Part shown: one piece after another, positions 48,904 through 60,068 of the stretch
Layout of the letters: each line of letters starts with the position of its first letter
Position numbering within the stretch: position 1 is the stretch's first letter
Assembly (NCBI GenBank): GCA_029867005.1
Contig: CP123443.1
Coordinates: forward strand, 2,170,001 to 2,234,000
Reading direction: 5' to 3'
Source: Candidatus Haliotispira prima
Lineage (GTDB): Bacteria; Spirochaetota; Spirochaetia; SP-2023
DNA: 64,000 bases
The notes under the pieces: model-generated
The model's input: the letters and a program-made list of their open reading frames with translations, nothing else
Told to the model about the DNA's origin: nothing
The model's database searches: none
Made by a program: the position numbers and the translations under genes

Positions 48904-48932
48904 TTGCCAAATATCCTGAACGAATATACCAT
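48904..48932 (+). promoter_or_regulatory. cassette 1 promoter
   Basis: TTGCCA (48904-48909), 17 bases, TACCAT (48927-48932); the -10 is weaker than in the sister cassettes. GGAGG (48953-48957) is the ribosome site. The 300 bp before it, back to clpP, hold no convincing gene. Confidence 0.65.
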
Positions 48933-48966
48933 AGGCTAAGATCAGACTATTCGGAGGTATTTCCCC

Positions 48967-49991
48967 ATGAGACAGCAAAAAATACTATTGACCGGCAAGC
49001 CAAAAAACGGTACAATATCCAATATCCAATATCCAATATCCAATATCACACTACTTTAGAAAACAAGCATTTCTTCCTCTTTCTATCACATCGTTCTAAT
49101 CCTCTTTATTCATTTCTATTTCGTCTTTTACCTATCCTTTTTTTGTCCGTTTTTGGTGTAACTTTGCTTGGCTGTGCCCCGATCTCGGACACCAATAAAG
49201 ACCCGGCCCCTCCCGTAAACCCTACCATCTCCTTTTCTTCCGTTGCTGTGGCCTCTTCTCTGCAATTGGAAATAAGCAGCAATGTCAAACTCCCAAACAT
49301 CAGGGCCGTTGTTCGCTTAGCTGCGGAAGCGGCTCCCACCAAGGCGGAAGCCTTGGCCAGTAAAGGGCATGTAAGCGTCAGCATACCCGCCGATGTCACA
49401 CGAAAAATCAGCATCAGCCAACACTATACGACCAACCTCGACGATGGCCTTACTTTGGCCGATGTTCTGGCCCCCAATACGGCTTACAAACTCTATCTTT
49501 ATTTTCCCGCAGAACTTATTACCACAACGGCAGAAATTACGGGACTAAACGTCACCGATGACATGGCCGCAGTCCCTTTCACCACTGCGGCCTTACCCGC
49601 TGAGGGTGATGCCAAATGGCTCAACAGCAATGGCAACAGCTACGTGGCCAGCTTAGACAACTTGTACTTTATGCAAGAACAAACAGGTGTCGCCGTGTTC
49701 TACTTTTATACAAATTTTATTCCTGTCATCTCTCAATTCTCAACTCAAGATGAGGATGGTACTTTCAATAGTATAGGTAGCTATTATGGGAACACGGTGG
49801 ATCCCTCTACCAGTTTTCATTTTGCATACGGGTCCATTGCCGGCTATATATCTAACTCTACCAACCGTTATAACTATTGGATAGGGGCAGATAAAGTAAG
49901 AATTATAGAAAATACTACCCGTCAGGTACTTAACCATGGCCCTACCGGTATAGATGTAGGGGTAGTCTTTATCCCCGTGACTCGCCATTAG
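48967..49991 (+). CDS. phase-variable lipoprotein, cassette 1 (out of frame)
   Basis: The ATG at 48967, ten bases after GGAGG, opens MRQQKILLTG and then a heptamer tract. In the present sequence its frame stops at TAG (49057) just after the tract. The lipoprotein lies in another frame: a hydrophobic stretch (LYSFLFRLLPILFLSVFGV) and lipobox LLGC (Cys codon 49173), then about 270 residues ending VVFIPVTRH. The total length is 1025 bp (3n+2), so one more 7-bp unit would join the frames and put Cys after a 71-residue signal peptide. Mature motifs are RAVVRLAAEAAP and ADVLAPNTAYKLYLY. The N-terminal 190 residues are nearly identical to cassette 2; the last 100 differ. Function unknown; surface exposure is inferred. 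Confidence 0.8.
49014..49047 (+). repeat. heptamer tract, cassette 1
   Basis: Four perfect AATATCC units plus AATATC. It encodes the periodic peptide NIQYPIS in all frames and contains no stop. Confidence 0.95.
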
Positions 49992-49999
49992 GTATTTTT

Positions 50000-50023
50000 G
50001 GGCCACCACCCCGGTGGTGGCCC
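50000..50023 (+). terminator. hairpin after cassette 1
   Basis: GGGCCACCACC and GGTGGTGGCCC pair around CC; only a short pyrimidine run follows. Confidence 0.55.
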
Positions 50024-50028
50024 CCCTC

Positions 50029-50057
50029 TTGCCAAATATCCTGAACGAATATACAAT
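50029..50057 (+). promoter_or_regulatory. cassette 2 promoter
   Basis: TTGCCA, 17-base spacer, TACAAT (50052-50057), with GGAGG at 50078-50082. Confidence 0.75.
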
Positions 50058-50091
50058 AGGCTAAGATCAGACTATTTGGAGGCATTTCCCC

Positions 50092-51116
50092 ATGAGACAG
50101 CAAAAAATACTATTGACCGGTAGGTTCATAAACGGTACAATATCCAATATCCAATATCCAATATCCAATATCACACTACTTTAGAAAACAAGCATTTCTT
50201 CCTATTTCTATCACATCGTTATAATCCTCTTTATTCATTTCTATTTCGTCTTTTACCTATCCTTTTTTTGTCCGTTTTTGGTGTAACTTTGCTTGGCTGT
50301 GCCCCGATCTCGGACACCGATAAAGACCCGACCCCTCCCGTAAACCCTACCATCTCCTTTTCTTCCGTTGCTGTGGCCTCTTCTCTGCAATTAGAAATAA
50401 GCAGCAATGTCGAACTCCCAAACATCAGGGCCGTTGTTCGCTTAGCTGCGGAAGCGGCTCCCACCAAGGCGGAAGCCTTGGCCAGTAAAGGTCATGTCAG
50501 TGTCCGCATACCCGCCGATGTCACACGAAAAATCAGCATCAGCCAACACTATACGACCAACCTCGACGATGGCCTTACTTTCGCCGATGTTCTGGCCCCC
50601 AATACGGCTTACAAACTCTATCTTTATTTTCCCGCAGAACTTATTACCACAACGGCAGAAATTACGGGACTAAACGTCACCAATGACATGGCCGCAGTCC
50701 CTTTCACCACTGCGGCCTTACCCGCTGAGGGTGATGCCAAATGGCTCAACAGTAATGGCAACAGCTACGTGGCCAGCTTAGACAACTTGTACTTTATGCA
50801 AGAACAAACAGGTATTGCCGTGTTCTACTTTTATACAAATTTTGCTCCTCTCATCTCTGAATTCTCAATTCAAGATGAGAATGGTACTTTCAATGGTATA
50901 GGTATCTATGCTGGGAATATAGTGACTCCCGATTCTAATTTTCATTTTGCATACGGGTCCATTTCTGGCTATATATCTAACTCTACCAACCGTTATAACT
51001 ATTGGATAGGGGCAGATAAAGTAAAGATTATAAAGAATAGTACCCGTCATACACTTACTGATGGCCCTACCGGTATAGATCTAGGGGTAGTCTTTATTCC
51101 CGTGACTCGCCATTAG
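50092..51116 (+). CDS. phase-variable lipoprotein, cassette 2 (out of frame)
   Basis: Same design as cassette 1. The ATG at 50092 opens MRQQKILLTGRFINGT, then the tract, then TAG. The lipoprotein frame has a TAG just upstream of the tract and no ATG, GTG or TTG between that stop and the signal core, so the GGAGG-linked ATG is the only credible start. Lipobox LLGC has Cys codon 50298. The length from ATG to stop is 1025 bp (3n+2); one added unit gives an open gene of 343 residues. The mature part differs from cassette 1 mainly after residue 190 (TNFAPLISEFSIQDENGTF versus TNFIPVISQFSTQDEDGTF). Confidence 0.8.
50139..50172 (+). repeat. heptamer tract, cassette 2
   Basis: Four AATATCC units plus AATATC, same size as in cassette 1. 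Confidence 0.95.
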
Positions 51117-51123
51117 GTATTTT

Positions 51124-51144
51124 GGGCCACCACCCCGGTGGCCC
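51124..51144 (+). terminator. hairpin after cassette 2
   Basis: GGGCCACC and GGTGGCCC pair, the same element as after cassette 1 but altered in the loop. Confidence 0.5.
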
Positions 51145-51155
51145 GTGGCCCCCCT

Positions 51156-51184
51156 TTGCCTAATATCCTGAACGAATATATAAT
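51156..51184 (+). promoter_or_regulatory. cassette 3 promoter
   Basis: TTGCCT, 17-base spacer, perfect TATAAT (51179-51184). Confidence 0.78.
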
Positions 51185-51218
51185 AGGCCAAGATTACACT
51201 ATTTGGAGGCATTTCCCC

Positions 51219-52192
51219 ATGAGACAGCAAAAAATACTATTGACCGGTAGGTTCATAAACGGTACAATATCCAATATCCAATATCCAATATCCAATATCA
51301 CACTACTTTAGAAAATAAGCATTTCTTCCTATTTCTATCACATCGTTTTAATCCTCTTTATTCATTTCTATTTCGTCTTTTACCTATCCTTTTTTTGTCC
51401 GTTTTTGGCGTAACTTTGCTTGGCTGTGTCCCACTGTCGGACACCAAAAACCCGGACAAACCGAAACCCGATATTTCTATCGGTAACGCCCTATATGCCC
51501 CTCATTTTATTCACTTGGAAGCGACAATCAATAATATCACCACAGATTTGGAAGTCGGCTTTTTGATTAGCACCGCTGTGGCGGTGCCTCAAGACCCCGC
51601 AAGCAAGCAGGGTTATATCAGCAGAATCTTTAGCAGCAGCACCCCCAAAAGGCCACTGCTGTTGTTTATGCATGATGCCACTGCCTACACGGACACGGAT
51701 GCAGAAAACACCTTTGAAAGTGCCGACTTCCTACAAGCCGACACCAAGTACTATCTGCATATTTTTAACAGCAGCCTCACCACCGAACCCCAGGCATTTA
51801 CAACCATGAGCTATGAGACTCTAAATGCTGCCGGCAATTCCATTGCGGTATTAGACGGCTTGGGAAATACCGATGCTGCGAATATCACCAGAATCATAGA
51901 GCGTAAAGCCAGTGAGCCGACCATCATTCCTCTCGTCCACTTTGGTGGCAATTATGCTTCAAGTAAAACTCGGCACAAAAACGATGACGTAGTCCTATGC
52001 TCATATAATACCAAGGTATGTGTACCTAATCATTCAGGTTTTAGAGGCTACCATCATTACCAAGGTGTCGTTGTTGATTATTATACTGTTTTGGTAGCTC
52101 CGAATACCCGTGCCGATTATTCGGCCACATGGACCGTGCTAACAGGTCTAGTTCGAATCTATGCGCTACAAATCAACACCATTGCCGAGTAG
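51219..52192 (+). CDS. phase-variable lipoprotein, cassette 3 (out of frame)
   Basis: ATG at 51219 after GGAGG, same leader peptide as cassette 2, tract, then lipobox LLGC (Cys codon 51425) in another frame. The length is 974 bp (3n+2), so one extra unit turns it on. The mature part (CVPLSDTKNPDKPKPDIS) belongs to a second subtype, with VGFLISTAVAVPQDP, KQGYISRIFSSSTPKR and ADFLQADTKYYLHIF. The first 155 mature residues almost equal cassette 4; after ERKASEPTI the two split into different C-terminal domains. This C-terminal part has a C-X6-C pair (VVLCSYNTKVCVP). Confidence 0.8.
51266..51299 (+). repeat. heptamer tract, cassette 3
   Basis: Four AATATCC units plus AATATC. Confidence 0.95.
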
Positions 52193-52240
52193 GTCCGGAA
52201 CGTCCCTTCCAACTCACCCCTTCGGGGAGACAGGGGGCCC

Positions 52241-52269
52241 TTGCCTAATATCCTGAACGAATATACAAT
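52241..52269 (+). promoter_or_regulatory. cassette 4 promoter
   Basis: TTGCCT, 17-base spacer, TACAAT (52264-52269). A weak CCCC-TTC-GGGG hairpin (52217-52227) lies just before it. Confidence 0.75.
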
Positions 52270-52303
52270 AGGCCAAGATTACACTATTTGGAGGCATTTC
52301 CCC

Positions 52304-53271
52304 ATGAGACAGCAAAAAATACTATTGACCGGTAGGTTCATAAACGGTACAATATCCAATATCCAATATCCAATATCCAATATCACACTACTTTAGAAAA
52401 TAAGCATTTCTTCCTATTTCTATCACATCGTTCTAAACCATCTTATTCCCTCTTACACTGTTTTTTACCTCTCCTTTTTCTCTCCATTCTCAGTCTGATT
52501 TTACTTGGCTGTGTGCCACTGTCAGACACCAAGAACCCGAACAAACCGAAACCCGATATTTCCATCGGTAACGCCCTGTATGCCCCTCATTTTATTCACT
52601 TGGAAGCGACGGCCAATAACATCACCACAGATTTGGAAGTCGGCTTTTTGATTAGCACCGCTGCGGCGGTGCCTCAAGACCCTACGAGCAAACAGGGCTA
52701 CATTAGCAGAACCTTTAGCAGCAGCACCCCCCAAAGGCCACTGCTGTTGTTTATGCATGATGCCACTGCCTACACGGACACGGATGCAGAAAACACCTTT
52801 GAAAGTGCCGACTTCCTACAAGCCGACACCAAGTACTATCTGCATATTTTTAACAGCAGCCTCACCACCGAACCCCAGGCATTTACAACCATGAGCTATG
52901 AGACTCTCAACGCTGCCGGCAATTCCATTGCGGTATTGGACGGCTTGGGAAATACCGATGCTGCAAGTATCACCAGAATCATAGAGCGCAAGGCCAGTGA
53001 GCCGACCATCTTTCCCTCTGTCATTGTTGTCGGTGGTTATTCTTCCAGTACAATTAGACAGAAAAACACCGATGTAATATATTGTGTATACAGTACTCAG
53101 CAATGCTTCCCTAATATTTCAGGTACCCAAACCTATCAGCACTACCGAAGTGCCGTTGATTATTATACCATGTTGGCAGTCCCTAATACCGGTACCGACT
53201 CGGATGTGTGGACCTTGCTGACAGGTTCAACAATAATCTATAAGCTGCAAATCAACACCGTTGCAGAGTAG
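52304..53271 (+). CDS. phase-variable lipoprotein, cassette 4 (out of frame)
   Basis: ATG at 52304 after GGAGG, leader as in cassettes 2 and 3. The length is 968 bp (3n+2), off by one unit. Upstream sequence and tract equal cassette 3, but the signal core is different (SLLHCFLPLLFLSILSLILLGC, quoted in part), while the mature N-terminal half is again nearly that of cassette 3. So the gene is a mosaic. The C-terminal domain is its own (VIVVGGYSSSTIRQKNTDV) with a C-X6-C pair (IYCVYSTQQCFP). The lipobox Cys codon is at 52510. Confidence 0.8.
52351..52384 (+). repeat. heptamer tract, cassette 4
   Basis: Four AATATCC units plus AATATC. Confidence 0.95.
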
Positions 53272-53281
53272 GTCTCTAACT

Positions 53282-53308
53282 GCCCCTGCACTCTCTGAGT
53301 GCAGGGGC
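53282..53308 (+). terminator. strong hairpin after cassette 4
   Basis: GCCCCTGCACT and AGTGCAGGGGC pair perfectly around five bases; no T-run follows. Confidence 0.6.
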
Positions 53309-53321
53309 CCAACTCACCCCC

Positions 53322-53350
53322 TTGCCAAATATTCAGAACGAATATACAAA
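53322..53350 (+). promoter_or_regulatory. cassette 5 promoter remnant
   Basis: TTGCCA, 17-base spacer, TACAAA (53345-53350). The cassette-type sequence stops right at the -10; the ribosome site, ATG, tract and signal peptide are gone. Confidence 0.6.
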
Positions 53351-53358
53351 ACGCTTCC

Positions 53359-54174
53359 ATGGCCTGGGTCTCCATGCGGGAAGGGCTGGTGCAGTTTGAC
53401 AATGGCACCCAAGGGGTAAAAACAATTGGCGTTATAGTCAGCAGGGAAACAGAACATCCTGCTTATGCGGATGCGAAAGACTTACCGGGTTTTTACACCA
53501 GAAAAACCAAAGCAGACGGAACACCCCGAACCGTCTGTCTTTCGATGACCGATAAAATGACAGCCACCAAGCTAAATACTTTGGTAACTGTTTCTGTTGA
53601 CGGTCAGGCTACAGATTTTGCCAGTGCCATTGCCGCCGCTCCGGAACTATTACACCCAAATACCGGCTATTATGCCCATTTCTATGAGATCACAGGCACT
53701 GCGGGTACAACGGACACTACCGGCACAGCCATAGAAAAGCCGGCATTTACAACCGAAGACTTCCCAACCACTTTTCCCACCGTAAGAGGATTATACAGCC
53801 GTTTCTATAATCAAATTACGGCCACAAGTACTTCCCCAAATATGGAATACAAATCTTCCGAGAGCTATTTGATTCCAATAAGGTTTCATTACTTTCCGGC
53901 AAGCGTTGGTGTCTATGCTTTGAGAAACGGTACAAATACATTTCAACTGCCGGAATCCTCACAAAATATGCGCCCTTTTACGACTACCAGTCCGACAATT
54001 TTAGTCTATGATTTATACAATATAACTCCCTCAGGCCCCGGTACAAATGTAGCTCTTTGGGACGGGATGGTAAACTTCAACAGTATTAGCAGACCATCAG
54101 GGATTGATTATATACATGGAGGAGAACACTTTGCATATTACGACAATAAAAAGACAGTAGCAGTAACCGAATAG
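53359..54174 (+). pseudogene. 5'-truncated lipoprotein, cassette 5
   Basis: The mature-type sequence (KTIGVIVSRETEHPAYADAK, DLPGFYTRKTKADGTPRT, PELLHPNTGYYAHFYEITG, KPAFTTEDFP) is clearly of the family, but it is joined directly to the cassette promoter with no ribosome site, tract, signal peptide or lipobox. An in-frame ATG at 53359 could give 271 residues of cytoplasmic product, if anything. It looks like the result of a deletion, and may serve as a silent donor of variable sequence. Confidence 0.75.
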
Positions 54175-54296
54175 GATTATTCTCCACTACTTTTGTCTCG
54201 CTAATACGTATTTCTCCCCCCGTTTGGTGCGGCAGGGGCCGGGCAACCCTAAACCATTCTATTTATGGAAAATAAACAGAATGGTTGGAAACGGGC

Positions 54297-55214
54297 CTAA
54301 AAAGTCTGTACATTATCGCAAAGCAATTCGACATGCAGCCCATTCTGCCCCAGCAGATAAATACCCGCCTCACTCGCCTTTTGGACCAGCTCGTCGTTGC
54401 TGATCGTTGTCGCCAGACCCAGGTATAACTTATGCCCTGCACATTCCGGGTGGCTGAGCCGGAAGGCCACTGCCTTTTTTTCCAATAAATCTTCGATATC
54501 TTTGAGATGAGCCTTGTATTTGATCTCAATAATTGCGACCGAACTACCGTTAAAAAGCAGAATATCGTACTCGGTTTTGCCATTGCTATCCAGAACATTG
54601 CACTCAATCCTGTCATAACGAGTCCCGCCAAGCACAGGGTTTCTCTTAAAACTGCCGGAAAACAGCTCCTCAGCGAAGCAGCCTGTGTTAATGCCAATAT
54701 TACCCAAGATTTCGCCAACGTTGCCAAGCTTTCTTTCGAGCTCCTGAAGCTGTGAGTCCGTCTTGGTCTGAGATTTCCGAATCTGCAAGTCTGTTTTGGC
54801 CTGAGACTCCCGAAGTTCCCGGATCTGCGAGCCTGTCTCCGCCTGAAATTCCTGAAGTTTCTGAAACTCCAAATCTGTCTTGGCCTGAGATTCCCGAATC
54901 TGTAAGCTTGTCTCGGCCTGAAACTCCCGAAGTTTCTGAGACTCCAAATCTGCCTTAGCCTTAGATTCTCGAAGTTGTTCCCGAAATTCCGAGTTCGCCT
55001 TAGCCTCAGATTCCCGAAGTTCTGCCATAGACTTCCGAAACTCTACCTGAGACTTCCGAAACTCTACCTGAGACTTCCGAAACTCTGCCTGAGACTTCCG
55101 AGATTCTGCCTGAGATTCCCGCATTTGTAAGTCCGTTTGGGCCTGAGATTCCTGGAGTTTTGCCATCCCCTGAAACATGCCCTGCATCATTTTGTCAAAC
55201 TGAGTATTATCCAT
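54297..55214 (-). CDS. coiled-coil protein with PD-(D/E)XK nuclease-like C-terminal domain
   Basis: A 305-aa protein on the opposite strand inside the lipoprotein array. Residues 1-165 are an extended coiled coil built of short repeats (SQVEFRKSQVEFRKS and the ESQAKTDLQ type; the DNA has 21-bp repeats near 55025-55090). The C-terminal 130 residues carry the nuclease pattern EYDILLFNGSSVAIIEIKYK (Asp, then Glu-X-Lys), typical of DUF3782-like PD-(D/E)XK proteins often found in many copies in bacterial genomes. Activity is inferred. The ATG at 55214 has AGGAG five bases upstream; a longer reading is less likely. It is not obviously related to the lipoproteins. Confidence 0.75.
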   Translation of the reverse strand: MDNTQFDKMMQGMFQGMAKLQESQAQTDLQMRESQAESRKSQAEFRKSQVEFRKSQVEFRKSMAELRESEAKANSEFREQLRESKAKADLESQKLREFQAETSLQIRESQAKTDLEFQKLQEFQAETGSQIRELRESQAKTDLQIRKSQTKTDSQLQELERKLGNVGEILGNIGINTGCFAEELFSGSFKRNPVLGGTRYDRIECNVLDSNGKTEYDILLFNGSSVAIIEIKYKAHLKDIEDLLEKKAVAFRLSHPECAGHKLYLGLATTISNDELVQKASEAGIYLLGQNGLHVELLCDNVQTF

Positions 55215-55299
55215 AACGCTCCTCATTATAGCCCGTTTTCGTTTTTCGGGCCAGACCATTCAAAAAATGTGGGAAACAGAGCCTGCTCCAATTTCGCTC

Positions 55300-55328
55300 T
55301 TGTGCTTCCCCCTTAACAAATATATAAT
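55300..55328 (+). promoter_or_regulatory. cassette 6 promoter
   Basis: A perfect -10 TATAAT (55323-55328); 17 bases upstream stands TTGTGC, a poor -35. The upstream part differs from the other cassettes. Confidence 0.5.
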
Positions 55329-55363
55329 AGGACAAAATTACAAAATTTTGGAGGAGTTTTCTC

Positions 55364-56391
55364 ATGAAATGTCAAAAAGCACTATTGACCGATAATTGGC
55401 CAAACGGTATAATATCCAATATCCAATATCCAATATCCAATATCCTACTCAATTAGAGCGCAGGCACCTACTTCAGACTCTATTAAACCATTATAAATCT
55501 TTTTATTCATTATTTTTATCTTTCGCTTCTTTCCTTTTTCTGTCTTTTCTCGGTGTAATCTTATTTAGCTGTGTCCCCCTGTCCGACACCATTGCCCCGG
55601 ACAGTAGTGCCCCGCCTGCTGCGCCAACCCCCACAACATCCATTACGGTCAATTATTCGGGCCTGCACTACGTCCATTTCACGGCTGATGACCCCAATGT
55701 ATCCGCAGACAAAACGGTCGGTTTTCTAATAACGCCAACGGACAGCAGCCCTTCTAAGGCCGTAGCGGAGACCAAGAAAGGCTACATTACCAGAAAATTT
55801 AGGGAAACCCAAAAGTCAAGAAATGTCTTTATGTTCTTGCACGAGGGCACGGCTTACAGCCTTGGCACGGGAAGCACGGACATTCCGTTTACCACAGGTG
55901 CCACCGCCAGCGATACCAATTTTGAAACTACGGATATCTTACAGGAAAACACGGCCTACAAAATACGCATGTATGACGGGGATGAAATACTGGAGAAAAC
56001 CTTTACCACCAAATCTTTTTCTGCCGGAGATGCGAGTTCAGAAGGTGCTATTGCCTATTTGGGAGGCTTGATCGCGGCTACAAAAGCGGCTGTTTCCCTT
56101 ACAATAGAGCGAAAACCCGAAGAAATCATGCTTATCCCTTATGCAAATGATACTTATGGAGGAAAACTTATTAATTATTATGAGAATGCTTCCCTACGAG
56201 CAGGTTGCTCTCCGGGTTGTGGAACGAGCTTGGTGGGAGTATATATAGCCGCTTTAAGAAAAGAAGCCAATCAACTTGTTTCTCTCGTATTTATACTTTC
56301 CCCTCAAAGAAATATAGCCCCGACTAATTGGACTGCAATAGAGCAGGCCAGATCTGAGATTGCCTATAATATAGAAATCATAAGTGAGTAG
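55364..56391 (+). CDS. phase-variable lipoprotein, cassette 6 (out of frame)
   Basis: The ATG at 55364 follows GGAGGAG and opens MKCQKALLTDN; with the five-unit tract its frame stops at TAG (55454). The lipoprotein frame carries lipobox LFSC (Cys codon 55570) after SLFLSFASFLFLSFLGVI. The length is 1028 bp (3n+2); one unit more restores it. A TTG at 55396 lies in the lipoprotein frame just before the tract, without ribosome site, so weak expression cannot be excluded. The mature part has VGFLITPTDSSPSK, KKGYITRKFRETQKS and TDILQENTAYKIRMY, and a C-X3-C pair (RAGCSPGCGTS). Confidence 0.8.
55411..55445 (+). repeat. heptamer tract, cassette 6
   Basis: Five perfect AATATCC units. Confidence 0.95.
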
Positions 56392-56414
56392 AGCCGGCAT
56401 TCTCCCGCAAGTTT

Positions 56415-56450
56415 GGCGGGGCCTTTACCATCTGCTGTAAACGCCCCGCC
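56415..56450 (+). terminator. hairpin after cassette 6
   Basis: GGCGGGGC and GCCCCGCC pair, then after one C-C mismatch TTTAC/GTAAA. The same element follows cassettes 7 and 8. Confidence 0.6.
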
Positions 56451-56501
56451 GTATCTTTTCCTTTTCTTCTTGCCTTTTTGTCCTTGCCCCACACACTCCC
56501 C

Positions 56502-56530
56502 TTGCACTTTACCCAAAACGAATATACAAT
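56502..56530 (+). promoter_or_regulatory. cassette 7 promoter
   Basis: TTGCAC, 17-base spacer, TACAAT (56525-56530). Confidence 0.72.
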
Positions 56531-56565
56531 AGGCCAAGACTGCACAAATTCGGAGGATTTTTCTT

Positions 56566-57616
56566 ATGAAATGTCAAAAAACACTGTTGACTGTTAATCA
56601 ACCAAACAGTATAATATCCAATATCCAATATCCAATATCCAATATCCAATATCCATACCTCGCTTAAAACATATATACAGTCAGTTTATCTCTTTTTACT
56701 GTCCAATAAATCAAAACTTTCCAAACCTTTTTCATTTTTCTGTTTTTTTTCTATTCTTCTCGTCCATTTGGTTTTGTCCGGTTGTGTGCCACTGTCCGAC
56801 ACCAAGGACTCTTCCCCCGGTGATTCACCACCCGCCCCAACAAACACTTTCACCATATCTTTTACCGGAATACAGGCCCTGGAATTGACCGTAAGTTCTG
56901 CTGAGGATATAACGGTCAATGCCATTGTGCGTTTAGCCGATGAACCCGCCCCCGTTTGGGCGGATATAAAAGATAAAGTCGGCTTACTCAGCCGAAATAT
57001 CGTAGCCAACACACCCAAACGCATCTTTACCGCCAAGCACTACGGCACCAATGACAGTCTAAAAACGAATATCGGGGCCATGAGCGCAGCCGATATTTTA
57101 CAGCCGGAAACGGCCTATAAGGTCCATGTTTTTCACGATGAGAGTCCCATTGAAACGCTGCCTTTCACGACCGCAGCCATTCCCCCCGCGAGTGAGTTTC
57201 CCTCAACACATACAGGACACAGTCTGAATTTTGCGCCGAACGTATTGCCTCTTAATACAGAGAGAACTTATTCCGTCAATGATGTTGAAAAGAAAGGTAT
57301 GTATGAAGTGTACGGCAAAGAAGGAGAAGTTTTGTTGGTTCCTATGTATATGAAAGAACTATTAACTGATGCATGGCGCGTTAGCAATGCTACAGTAGAG
57401 TTAGGTTCCTGTAATCTTCTCAATGCTTGTTTAGCTGATCCGGGTTATGCAATAACACCCGAGTTTATTTACGAAAGTGTTGCTGCCAAAACGTATCACA
57501 AAGTTCTTTTAGGGTTTCAATCTTTCAATAAATCAACCACGAGAGATGCAGGTGATGGATTCATTAGAGATGGTGCACAAGACCCCTATCTTATTCATTC
57601 TATTGCAGATAAATAG
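56566..57616 (+). CDS. phase-variable lipoprotein, cassette 7 (out of frame)
   Basis: ATG at 56566 after GGAGG (MKCQKTLLTVN), six-unit tract, lipobox LSGC (Cys codon 56783) after FSFFCFFSILLVHLV. The length is 1051 bp (3n+1): here one unit fewer, or two more, restores the frame, giving a 70-residue signal peptide. The lipoprotein frame is open back through the tract. The mature part (CVPLSDTKDSSPGDSPPAP) defines a third subtype with IVRLADEPAPVWADIKDK, VGLLSRNIVANTPKR and ADILQPETAYKVHVF. The C-terminal part has a C-X5-C pair (LGSCNLLNACLAD) and differs from cassettes 8 and 9. Confidence 0.8.
56613..56654 (+). repeat. heptamer tract, cassette 7
   Basis: Six perfect AATATCC units, the longest perfect tract. 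Confidence 0.95.
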
Positions 57617-57664
57617 AGTGGGTTTGAACAAACGTTTTAGAGCCGGCATTCTCCCGCCAAGTTC

Positions 57665-57700
57665 GGCGGGGCCTTTATCATCTGTTGTAAACGCCCCGCC
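57665..57700 (+). terminator. hairpin after cassette 7
   Basis: GGCGGGGC/GCCCCGCC, as after cassette 6. Confidence 0.6.
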
Positions 57701-57737
57701 GTATCTTGCCCTTCTGTCCTCGCCCCGGACGCTCCCC

Positions 57738-57766
57738 TTGCCAAATATTCAGAACGAATATACAAT
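57738..57766 (+). promoter_or_regulatory. cassette 8 promoter
   Basis: TTGCCA, 17-base spacer, TACAAT (57761-57766). Confidence 0.75.
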
Positions 57767-57801
57767 AGGCCAAGACTGCATAAATTCGGAGGATTTTTCT
57801 T

Positions 57802-58828
57802 ATGAAACGTCAAAAATTACTGTTGACCAATAACCAACTAAAAGGTATAATATCCAATATCCAATATCCAATATCCAATATCCAATATCTATACCAGTTT
57901 TAAAACATATATACAGATATTTTATCTTTTTTTACTTCCCAATAAATCGAAACTTTCCAAACCTTTTTCATTTTTCTGTTTTTTTTCTATTCTTCTCATT
58001 CATTTGGTTTTGTCCGGTTGCGCACCGTTGTCTGACACTAAGGACTCTTCCCCCGGTGATTCACCACCCGTCCCAACAAACACTTTCGCCATATCTTTTA
58101 CCGGAATACAGGCTGTAGAACTGACCGTAAATCTTATTGAAGATATGGTTGTCAGTGCCATTGTGCGCTTAGCCAATGAACCCGCCCCCGTTTGGGCGGA
58201 TATACAGGATAAAGTCGGCCTACTCACTCGCAACCTCACAGCTAACACTCCCAAACGAATTTTCACCGCCAAGCACTACGGCACTAATGACAGTTTAAAA
58301 ACAAATATCGGGGCCATGAGCGCAGCCGATTTCTTACAACCGGAGACGGCCTATAAGGTCTATATTTTTCGTGATGAGAGTATCATTGAAACACTGCTTT
58401 TCACTACCGCAGCCATTCCCCCCCCGAGTGAGTTTCCCTCAACAAGTACAGGAAACAGTCTGAATTTTGCGCCAAACGTATTGCCTCTTAATAAAGGCAA
58501 AGGTATCTATGAATTGTATGGCAAAGAAGGAGAAGTTTTGTTGATTCCTCTGTATATGAATTCCATTCGGCAATTAAAGACCGGATGGTTGTTTATCAAT
58601 GGCACAGGTGTATTTGCTTCTTCCTGTAATTTTGTTAGTTGTTTACCTAATGCCGGTTATGTAACGACACCGGAAATTCTTTACCAAAGTGTTACTCCGA
58701 ACACCTATCACAAAGTCCTTTGGGGAATTCAATCTTTCAACAGTACAAAAAAAGATGCGGGTATTGGTGATATTCAAGATGGGGCAGATGGAACACCCTA
58801 TTATATTAGTTTTATTGCAGATAAATAA
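57802..58828 (+). CDS. phase-variable lipoprotein, cassette 8 (out of frame)
   Basis: ATG at 57802 after GGAGG (MKRQKLLLTNNQ), tract of nearly six units, lipobox LSGC (Cys codon 58019). The length is 1027 bp (3n+1), so minus one unit turns it on. The mature protein is nearly identical to cassette 9 and like cassette 7 in its first half; it has a C-X4-C pair (FASSCNFVSCLPN). A short insert difference from cassette 7 (loss of the ERTYSVNDVEKK region) is seen in the middle. Confidence 0.8.
57849..57889 (+). repeat. heptamer tract, cassette 8
   Basis: Five perfect AATATCC units plus AATATC(T). Confidence 0.95.
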
Positions 58829-58875
58829 ACTAATTTTGAACAAACGCTTTAGAGCCGGCATTCTCCCGCAAGGTC

Positions 58876-58911
58876 GGCGGGGCCTTTATCATCTGTTGTA
58901 AACGCCCCGCC
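58876..58911 (+). terminator. hairpin after cassette 8
   Basis: GGCGGGGC/GCCCCGCC, as after cassettes 6 and 7. Confidence 0.6.
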
Positions 58912-58962
58912 GTATCTTGCCCTTTTCTTCTTGCCCTTCTGTCCTCGCCCCACACACTCCCC

Positions 58963-58991
58963 TTGCCAAATATTTAGAACGAATATACAAT
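58963..58991 (+). promoter_or_regulatory. cassette 9 promoter
   Basis: TTGCCA, 17-base spacer, TACAAT (58986-58991). Confidence 0.75.
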
Positions 58992-59026
58992 AGGCCAAGA
59001 CTACAATATCTCGGAGGATTTTTCTT

Positions 59027-60068
59027 ATGAAATGTCAAAAAGTACTGTTGACCGGTAATCAACCAAACAGTATAATATCCAATATCCAATATCCAATATC
59101 CAATATCCAATATCTATACCAGGTTTAAAAAGTATATACAGCTATTTTTCCTTTTTTTACGGCTAAATAAACCTCAATTTTTCAAAGCCTTTTCAGTTTT
59201 TCCATTTTTCTGCTTTTTTTCCATTCTTCTCATTCATTTGGTTCTGTCCGGTTGTGTGCCACTGTCCGACACTAAGGACTCTTCCCCCGGTGATTCACCA
59301 CCCGCCCCAACAAACACTTTCGCCATATCTTTTACCGGAATACAGGCTGTAGAACTGACCGTAAATCTTATTGAAGATATGGTTGTCAGTGCCATTGTGC
59401 GCTTAGCCAATGAACCCGCCCCCGTTTGGGCGGATATAAAAGATAAAGTCGGTTTACTCACTCGCAACCTCACAGCCAATACTCCCAAACGAATTTTCAC
59501 CGCCAAACACTACGGTACCAATGACAGTCTAAAAACGAATATCGGGGCCATGAGCGCAGCCGATTTCTTACAACCGGAGACGGCCTATAAGGTCTATATT
59601 TTTCGTGATGAGAGTCTCATTGAAACGCTGCCTTTCACCACCACAGCCATTCCCCCCGCGAGTGAGTTTCCCTCAACACGTACAGGAAACAGTCTAAATT
59701 TTGCGCCAAACGTATTGCCTCTTAATAAAGGCAAAGGTATCTATGAATTGTATGGCAAAGAAGGAGAGGTTTTGTTGATTCCTCTGTATATGAATTCCAT
59801 TCGGCAATTAAAGACCGGATGGTTGTTTATCAATGGCACAGGTGTATATGCTTCTTCCTGTAATCTTGTTAGTTGTTTACCTAATCCCGGTTATGTAACG
59901 ACACTGGAAATTCTTTACCAAAGTGTTACTCCGAACACGTATCACAAAGTCCTTTGGGGAATTCAATCTTTCAACAGTAACAGTACAAAAAAAGATGCGG
60001 GTATTGGTTATATTCAAGATGGGGCAGATGGAACACCCTATTATATTAGTTTTATTGCAGATAAATAG
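59027..60068 (+). CDS. phase-variable lipoprotein, cassette 9 (out of frame)
   Basis: ATG at 59027 after GGAGG (MKCQKVLLTGNQ), tract of nearly six units, lipobox LSGC (Cys codon 59253). The length is 1042 bp (3n+1), so minus one unit turns it on. It is the closest relative of cassette 8, with a few changed residues and two extra residues near the end (FNSNSTKKDAG). It closes the array; the repeated GGCGGGGC hairpin is absent after it, replaced by a GGGTTT/AAACCC stem (60072-60095). Confidence 0.8.
59074..59114 (+). repeat. heptamer tract, cassette 9
   Basis: Five perfect AATATCC units plus AATATC(T). Confidence 0.95.

Follow-up and report, generated by a model that had tools for sequence, protein, structure and literature searches.

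Among the closest described systems, the opa genes of Neisseria gonorrhoeae carry a CTCTT pentamer in the signal-peptide codons of 9-12 loci for outer-membrane Opa proteins, and are in frame less often than chance predicts (mean 1.7 vs 3.4 expected; PMC13183285). We have analysed a 64,000-nucleotide stretch of Candidatus Haliotispira prima (the window; positions 2170001-2234000 of the single 3,251,735-bp contig CP123443.1), which contains at 48904-60068 eight intact lipoprotein gene cassettes and one 5'-deleted unit. The intact cassettes consist of a promoter (P1), a Shine-Dalgarno site, an ATG, a second, promoter-like element (P2), a heptamer tract (AATATCC)n, a signal peptide, a lipobox and the mature part, in that order; the segment between start codon and tract is hereafter the head. 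In common with opa, they show a repeat whose unit is not a multiple of three within signal-sequence codons, an apparent multigene surface family and a deficit of in-frame genes. The differences are the 393 head sites found here, the predicted lipoprotein products, the heptameric unit and the promoter inside the coding head.

Four other systems share single traits with the cassettes. An ATCTTTC heptamer in the 5' untranslated region (UTR) of hmwA in nontypeable Haemophilus influenzae sets the expression level, and its first repeat lies in the -10 box of promoter P2 (PMC8262952). The first repeat of the tract studied here likewise gives bases of the P2 -10 box, but the start codon precedes the tract; the cassettes are not members of the hmwA type, because no supported start follows it. 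In vlhA of Mycoplasma gallisepticum, a GAA tract lies ~40 nt upstream of the transcription start, and a gene is considered active at exactly 12 units (PMC6258824). That family resembles ours in being a large set of lipoprotein genes with one tract per gene and few genes in the active state; it is switched transcriptionally, whereas here, compared by position only, the tract follows P1, the Shine-Dalgarno site and the ATG. The pilE G4-associated small RNA of N. gonorrhoeae hybridizes to the C-rich strand, leaving the G-rich one free (PMC3547852); the likeness is a dedicated promoter initiating inside a special sequence beside a surface-antigen gene. In our case, P2 would read (AATATCC)n as the RNA sense, with the GG-bearing strand as template, and the tract forms part of the gene. 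Attenuation at the GCAGA repeats of pil1 in Streptococcus gallolyticus needs a terminator hairpin and a separate downstream start (PMC3894217). There, as here, repeats stand in a short translated head and the stop moves with unit number; in contrast, no hairpin was seen in the eight window cassettes and no separate start is supported in any of the 373 cassettes analysed. The top results of a literature search gave no description of an opa-like frame switch and an hmwA-like promoter overlap in one tract, nor of such a scale.

We regard it as likely, judging from the sequence, that the heptamer tract is an on/off frame switch of lipoprotein genes. Ribosomes would start at the ATG before the tract, units would be gained or lost by slipped-strand mispairing, with one unit switching the gene on or off, such changes would occur in living populations, and the lipoproteins would be exposed on the cell surface. 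The switch would work in the opa manner: the tract lies between start codon and mature part, the start before it is the sole supported one, and paralogs differ by whole units.

The system extends far beyond the window. We found 1107 matches to (AATATCC)3 in the genome (762 + 345), and the composite pattern TTGAC-N18-TAn-AATATCC-nATATCC occurs at 393 sites (262 + 131), with AATATCC as the second unit in 375 (119 + 256) and another heptamer in 18. Reversed-pattern controls gave 0 sites, which rules out chance. Sixty-two stretches and the window contain 378 tracts of at least two perfect units, from which 373 cassettes, including those of the window, were analysed; 18 of the 393 sites lie outside these stretches, and 363 exact sites and 12 variant tracts lie inside. 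Variant tracts elsewhere in the genome are built of CATATCC or TATATCC heptamers. The open frames of the analysed cassettes account for 11.2% of the genome, at a median spacing of 1,270 bp, all on the basis of one assembly (completeness 89.55 as listed). The sequence-only reading described an array of nine cassettes controlled by the tract; eight are intact and the ninth has lost its 5' part, and the array is not singular but one of dozens. That reading overlooked the genome-wide scale, P2 and the out-of-frame state of every cassette. Near the contig ends (4000-16000, L031, and 3243500-3249500, L092), three cassettes per end are 100% identical after the tract; they may reflect sequence assembled twice at the two ends, as when a circular contig is left untrimmed, which would slightly inflate the counts.

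Of the 373 cassettes, 368 start with ATG and five with GTG. The start codon stands 47 nt before the tract in 355, where the script sought ATG or GTG, and the remaining 18 use no other codon; codon 2 is AAA in 311 of the 355. Between the tract and a point 17 codons before the lipobox Cys, an in-frame ATG, GTG or TTG is present in only five of the 373 cassettes, and one with a Shine-Dalgarno site in none. This region has six starts in the lipoprotein frame (8,291 codons), against 46 in one and 62 in the other of the remaining frames (7,923 codons each); as the region is G-poor (7%), the base-composition expectation of 184 is too high, a first-order Markov expectation is 59, and the remaining frames provide the fairer comparison. 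Among the 358 not-in-frame genes, 57 have an in-frame start upstream of the tract, with a Shine-Dalgarno site in a single, stop-interrupted gene. Because in-frame starts with such a site are nearly absent around the tract, the out-of-frame state looks tightly off. The earlier claims that the tract sits inside the signal-peptide region and that the ATG upstream of it is the only well-supported start thus hold across the 373 cassettes, and a translation start after the tract is rejected. Leaderless translation of P2 transcripts is rejected as well, since, measured from the first base of the tract, the lipoprotein occurs in all three frames (in 230, 115 and 28 cassettes) and the tract contains no ATG, GTG or TTG. 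So is a ribosomal frameshift where the out-of-frame product terminates, as the lipoprotein frame lies on one side of that product's frame in 231 genes and on the other in 126. In one variant-heptamer cassette (L068, minus strand, 6335), the start-codon position reads ATA.

The lipoprotein frame stays open for more than 150 codons from the tract in 374 of the 378 tracts. Up to Cys minus 17 it contains no stops, vs 380 and 553 in the other frames, as counted after selection of the open reading frames. The ratio of non-synonymous to synonymous substitution rates (dN/dS), was obtained from 155 of 156 nearest pairs; it is 0.37 for the mature part and 0.49 between tract and Cys. In 87 gap-free pairs it is 0.49 in the first 12 codons after the tract, 0.74 in the middle and 0.43 in the last 20 codons before the Cys, and 0.79 in the head outside the codons under the P2 -35 box. 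By these ratios, the lipoprotein frame is under purifying selection, and because selection keeps the out-of-frame genes intact, they are probably read at times.

The cysteine was located by a lipobox-like pattern, so that the presence of a lipobox holds by construction; position -1 is G, A or S in 364 and position -3 is L in 312 of the 373. The lipobox follows a hydrophobic stretch, and nearly all of the 373 genes examined encode predicted lipoproteins. One head and tract (L054:1508-3290) precede a frame matching PF04488 (glycosyltransferase) and PF05050 (FkbM methyltransferase) in place of a lipoprotein. A DUF285 (PF03382) match was found in all 11 scanned members of a family of 25; one member of a Kelch-like family was scanned. 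Six window lipoprotein frames had no Pfam match above the cut-off, nor did six of ten family representatives, one of which had a match below it. Structure models were poor (mean pLDDT 56.8 and 68.1; matches Z <8); the matches suggest Ig-like beta-sandwich domains and are too weak for fold assignment. The cassettes are mosaic: the nearest neighbour by upstream region is also the nearest by mature region in only 83 of 372, and among 131 pairs whose upstream regions are very similar, 12 have mature parts without detectable nucleotide similarity. The composite pattern of P2 and tract had 0 sites in 391 other genomes sampled from the phylum Spirochaetota; the order of this genome contains no second genome in the database. 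Of 11 ClpP matches in named genomes, the best four are spirochaetal (Borreliella, two of Treponema and one of Spirochaetaceae), which puts the organism with the spirochaetes. A lipoprotein scan of named genomes found no relative, and two protein searches, with sensitivity limited to shared 5-residue words, found relatives on the same contig only (24 and 66 matches).

P2 deserves separate consideration. It is a sigma-70-like promoter inside the coding head (TTGAC-N18-TAn before the tract), the -10 box of which is completed by the first tract unit, exactly so in 360 of the 373 cassettes; the pattern by which the 393 sites were located itself asks for this completion. In the 355 cassettes with a 47-nt head, TTG of the -35 box is present in all 355, the A in 353 and the C in 349, and the TA of the -10 box in 354 and 353. 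The entropies along TTGAC are 0.00, 0.00, 0.00, 0.05 and 0.12, vs 1.67 at the sixth base; those of the TA are 0.03 and 0.05, vs 1.71 at the base that follows. The spacer is variable in sequence and constant in length (17 bp). In nearest pairs, non-synonymous difference (pN) is 0.003 in the codons under the -35 box vs 0.113 in the rest of the head. The median promoter score is 7.25 for P2, 6.69 for P1 and 4.92 for shuffled upstream segments. We rejected the explanation of P2 as a by-product of coding constraint: the free -10 base is a second codon position and the T at the preceding codon third is fixed, and P2 is retained, in another frame, in a family with a 45-nt head, two bases short of the usual length. 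Since its bases are constrained independently of reading frame, P2 is probably a working promoter. Its transcription would start ~7 nt after the -10 box and so inside the tract, and might thereby expose the tract or set its turnover. In variant tracts, the first unit has withstood the change that spread through the other units. As a weak hint, the -10 TA is lost in two of the 16 genes then called in frame vs one of the 357 others (p=0.005). Across the 47-nt heads, AAAC[A/G]G just before the P2 -10 box is strongly conserved (entropies 0.39, 0.22, 0.38, 0.53, 0.81 and 0.14), a conservation not expected of a plain sigma-70 promoter.

Whether the tract is dynamic can be judged from paralogs. Unit number differs in 10 of 109 reciprocal same-junction pairs, three of which join an in-frame and an out-of-frame gene; the proposal that gain or loss of a unit shifts the frame is borne out by these whole-unit differences. 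In the 12 variant tracts analysed, the first unit stays AATATCC and all inner units are CATATCC (11 tracts) or TATATCC (one), the simplest explanation of which is that units were gained and lost repeatedly, in two or more lineages. On a long scale, the tract is therefore most likely dynamic. In one cassette (L091:6140), the tract is down to 1.86 units, three below its class mode and in the same out-of-frame state.

Several observations weigh against a frame switch. Only 15 of the 373 genes are in frame and uninterrupted, where free slippage would give about one third (binomial p=3e-44, but the cassettes are related). Unit number is identical in the other 99 of the 109 reciprocal pairs and the same in 106 of 120 independent same-junction pairs; among pairs of 90-95% identity that share the partial last unit, it agrees in 38 of 41, and the 52 pairs of that identity band have 225 gap openings elsewhere. 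In 16 of the genes that are not in frame, an ATG in the lipoprotein frame lies 7 nt ahead of the tract and lacks a Shine-Dalgarno site; the idea that these belong to the 45-nt-head family proved wrong, since 15 of the 16 sit in 47-nt heads. Finally, a frame switch needs no strict role for P2. Phase variation by frame remains the best explanation, with the only supported start before the tract, and a fast random switch is disfavoured by the in-frame count and the stable unit numbers. Either slippage is slow, or divergence is driven by recombination and provides no clock, which is plausible because the cassettes are mosaic, or unit number is under selection.

The shortage of in-frame genes shrinks as related cassettes are merged: 14 of 153 distinct stretch-junction-unit sets are in frame, and by the most conservative independence count, nine of 33 distinct junction-unit states, with no departure from one third (p=0.58). 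Because the latter fits one third, the excess of out-of-frame genes may be inherited from founder copies, though it may also be selected, or both. The mode is out of frame in 11 of the 12 junction classes that have three or more members; 20 genes deviate from their class mode, and 10 of these are in frame. Protein families differ in this respect. The DUF285 family has eight of 25 members in frame (frames 8:10:7; 2-8 units) and the two-member Kelch-like family both, so that together 10 of 27 are in frame vs five of the 346 others (Fisher p=1.6e-9, with no correction for relatedness). This split favours selection. In most families, the out-of-frame resting state would be founder-inherited or kept by selection against the expression of many genes at once.

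Other functions of the tract have to be weighed against the frame switch. Most cassettes could be a silent archive, stably off and donating sequence by gene conversion to a few in-frame genes, with tract and head as shared homology. The mosaic structure, the 358 genes not in frame and the stable unit counts would all suit such an archive. It is nonetheless unlikely: the cassettes keep P1, Shine-Dalgarno site, start codon and P2, none of which a donor needs, the in-frame genes occur in 14 different stretches and for the most part come from protein families other than those of the off genes, and DUF285 frames look random. An hmwA-like tuner, with P2 as the main promoter, the tract as the start of the 5' UTR, unit number setting transcript level and translation beginning after the tract in any frame, would account for the better consensus match of P2 over P1, its nearly invariant bases and the -10 box that includes the first repeat. 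We consider it quite improbable, given that no cassette has a Shine-Dalgarno-backed start after the tract, the region between tract and signal evolves as coding from its first 12 codons, and the lipoprotein occurs in three frames relative to the tract start.

A pil1-like attenuation, in which the length of a short out-of-frame product that stops close to a terminator determines read-through, agrees with where that product mostly ends, soon after the tract: among 357 genes its length is 30 aa in 206 and 33 aa in 84 (range 28-83). It is very improbable nevertheless: a scan of the eight window cassettes revealed no plus-strand terminator-like site between tract and lipobox, and the lipoprotein lacks a separate start. 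A bolder version of the frame switch, to which we give tentative and clearly limited credence, sees the ~390 genes, over a tenth of the genome, as an antigen library in which P2 fires from within each tract, opens it and sets the rate of change, and the frame sets the reading, a single sequence serving as promoter, mutator and signal-peptide code.

If the switch works, the frame-switched repertoire exceeds the 9-12 gonococcal opa loci more than 30-fold and uses one shared head, and population diversity and exclusion rules become open to study with hundreds of parallel switches per cell line. Because DUF285 genes have random-like frames and the other families are kept out of frame, comparing them allows selection on the on-state to be measured. 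A further, testable question comes from the constrained internal promoter, namely whether transcription starting inside a repeat controls the mutation rate of that repeat.

The eight complete cassettes of the window are present as the sequence-only reading had them, all on the plus strand, each with a perfect (AATATCC)n tract (spanning 49014-59114), a GGAGG with the ATG nine bases on, an ATG-to-tract distance of 47 nt, and a lipoprotein frame. Doubled-unit matches number 29 in the window vs 0 in 100 shuffles, which rules out a chance origin of the tracts. In all eight, the lipoprotein frame is out of frame with the ATG. Cassette 1 (48904-49991) has P1 at 48904-48932, GGAGG at 48953, ATG at 48967, P2 at 48988-49016 (TTGACC-17-TACAAT), the tract at 49014-49047 and the lipoprotein frame to 49991. 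The corresponding elements of cassette 2 (50029-51116) are P1 50029-50057, GGAGG 50078, ATG 50092, P2 50113-50141, tract 50139-50172 and frame to 51116. Cassette 3 (51156-52192; P1 51156-51184, GGAGG 51205, ATG 51219, P2 51240-51268, tract 51266-51299, frame to 52192) is a chimera with a 5' region like that of cassette 2 and a mature part without detectable nucleotide similarity to it. Cassette 4 occupies 52241-53271, with P1 at 52241-52269, GGAGG at 52290, ATG at 52304, P2 at 52325-52353, the tract at 52351-52384 and the frame to 53271. The ninth unit (53322-54174, plus strand) retains a P1 remnant (TTGCCA-17-TACAAA, 53322-53350), followed directly by the mature lipoprotein frame, as read by eye; its Shine-Dalgarno site, ATG, P2, tract and signal peptide are all lost.

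In the second half of the array, cassette 5 (55300-56391) comprises P1 at 55300-55328 (TTGTGC-17-TATAAT, by eye), GGAGG at 55350, ATG at 55364, P2 at 55385-55413 (TTGACC-17-TATAAT), the tract at 55411-55445 and the frame to 56391. Cassette 6 (56502-57616) follows with P1 56502-56530 (TTGCAC-17-TACAAT, by eye), GGAGG 56552, ATG 56566, P2 56587-56615, tract 56613-56654 and frame to 57616. For cassette 7 (57738-58828), these are P1 57738-57766, GGAGG 57788, ATG 57802, P2 57823-57851, tract 57849-57889 and frame to 58828. Cassette 8 (58963-60068) closes the array, with P1 at 58963-58991 (TTGCCA-17-TACAAT), GGAGG at 59013, ATG at 59027, P2 at 59048-59076, the tract at 59074-59114 and the frame to 60068. 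An Rfam scan of the window gave two tRNAs and nothing else. Within the array, on the minus strand, 54297-55259 encodes a protein without Pfam match that has a long repetitive, coiled-coil-like N-part and an IEIK motif in its C-part.

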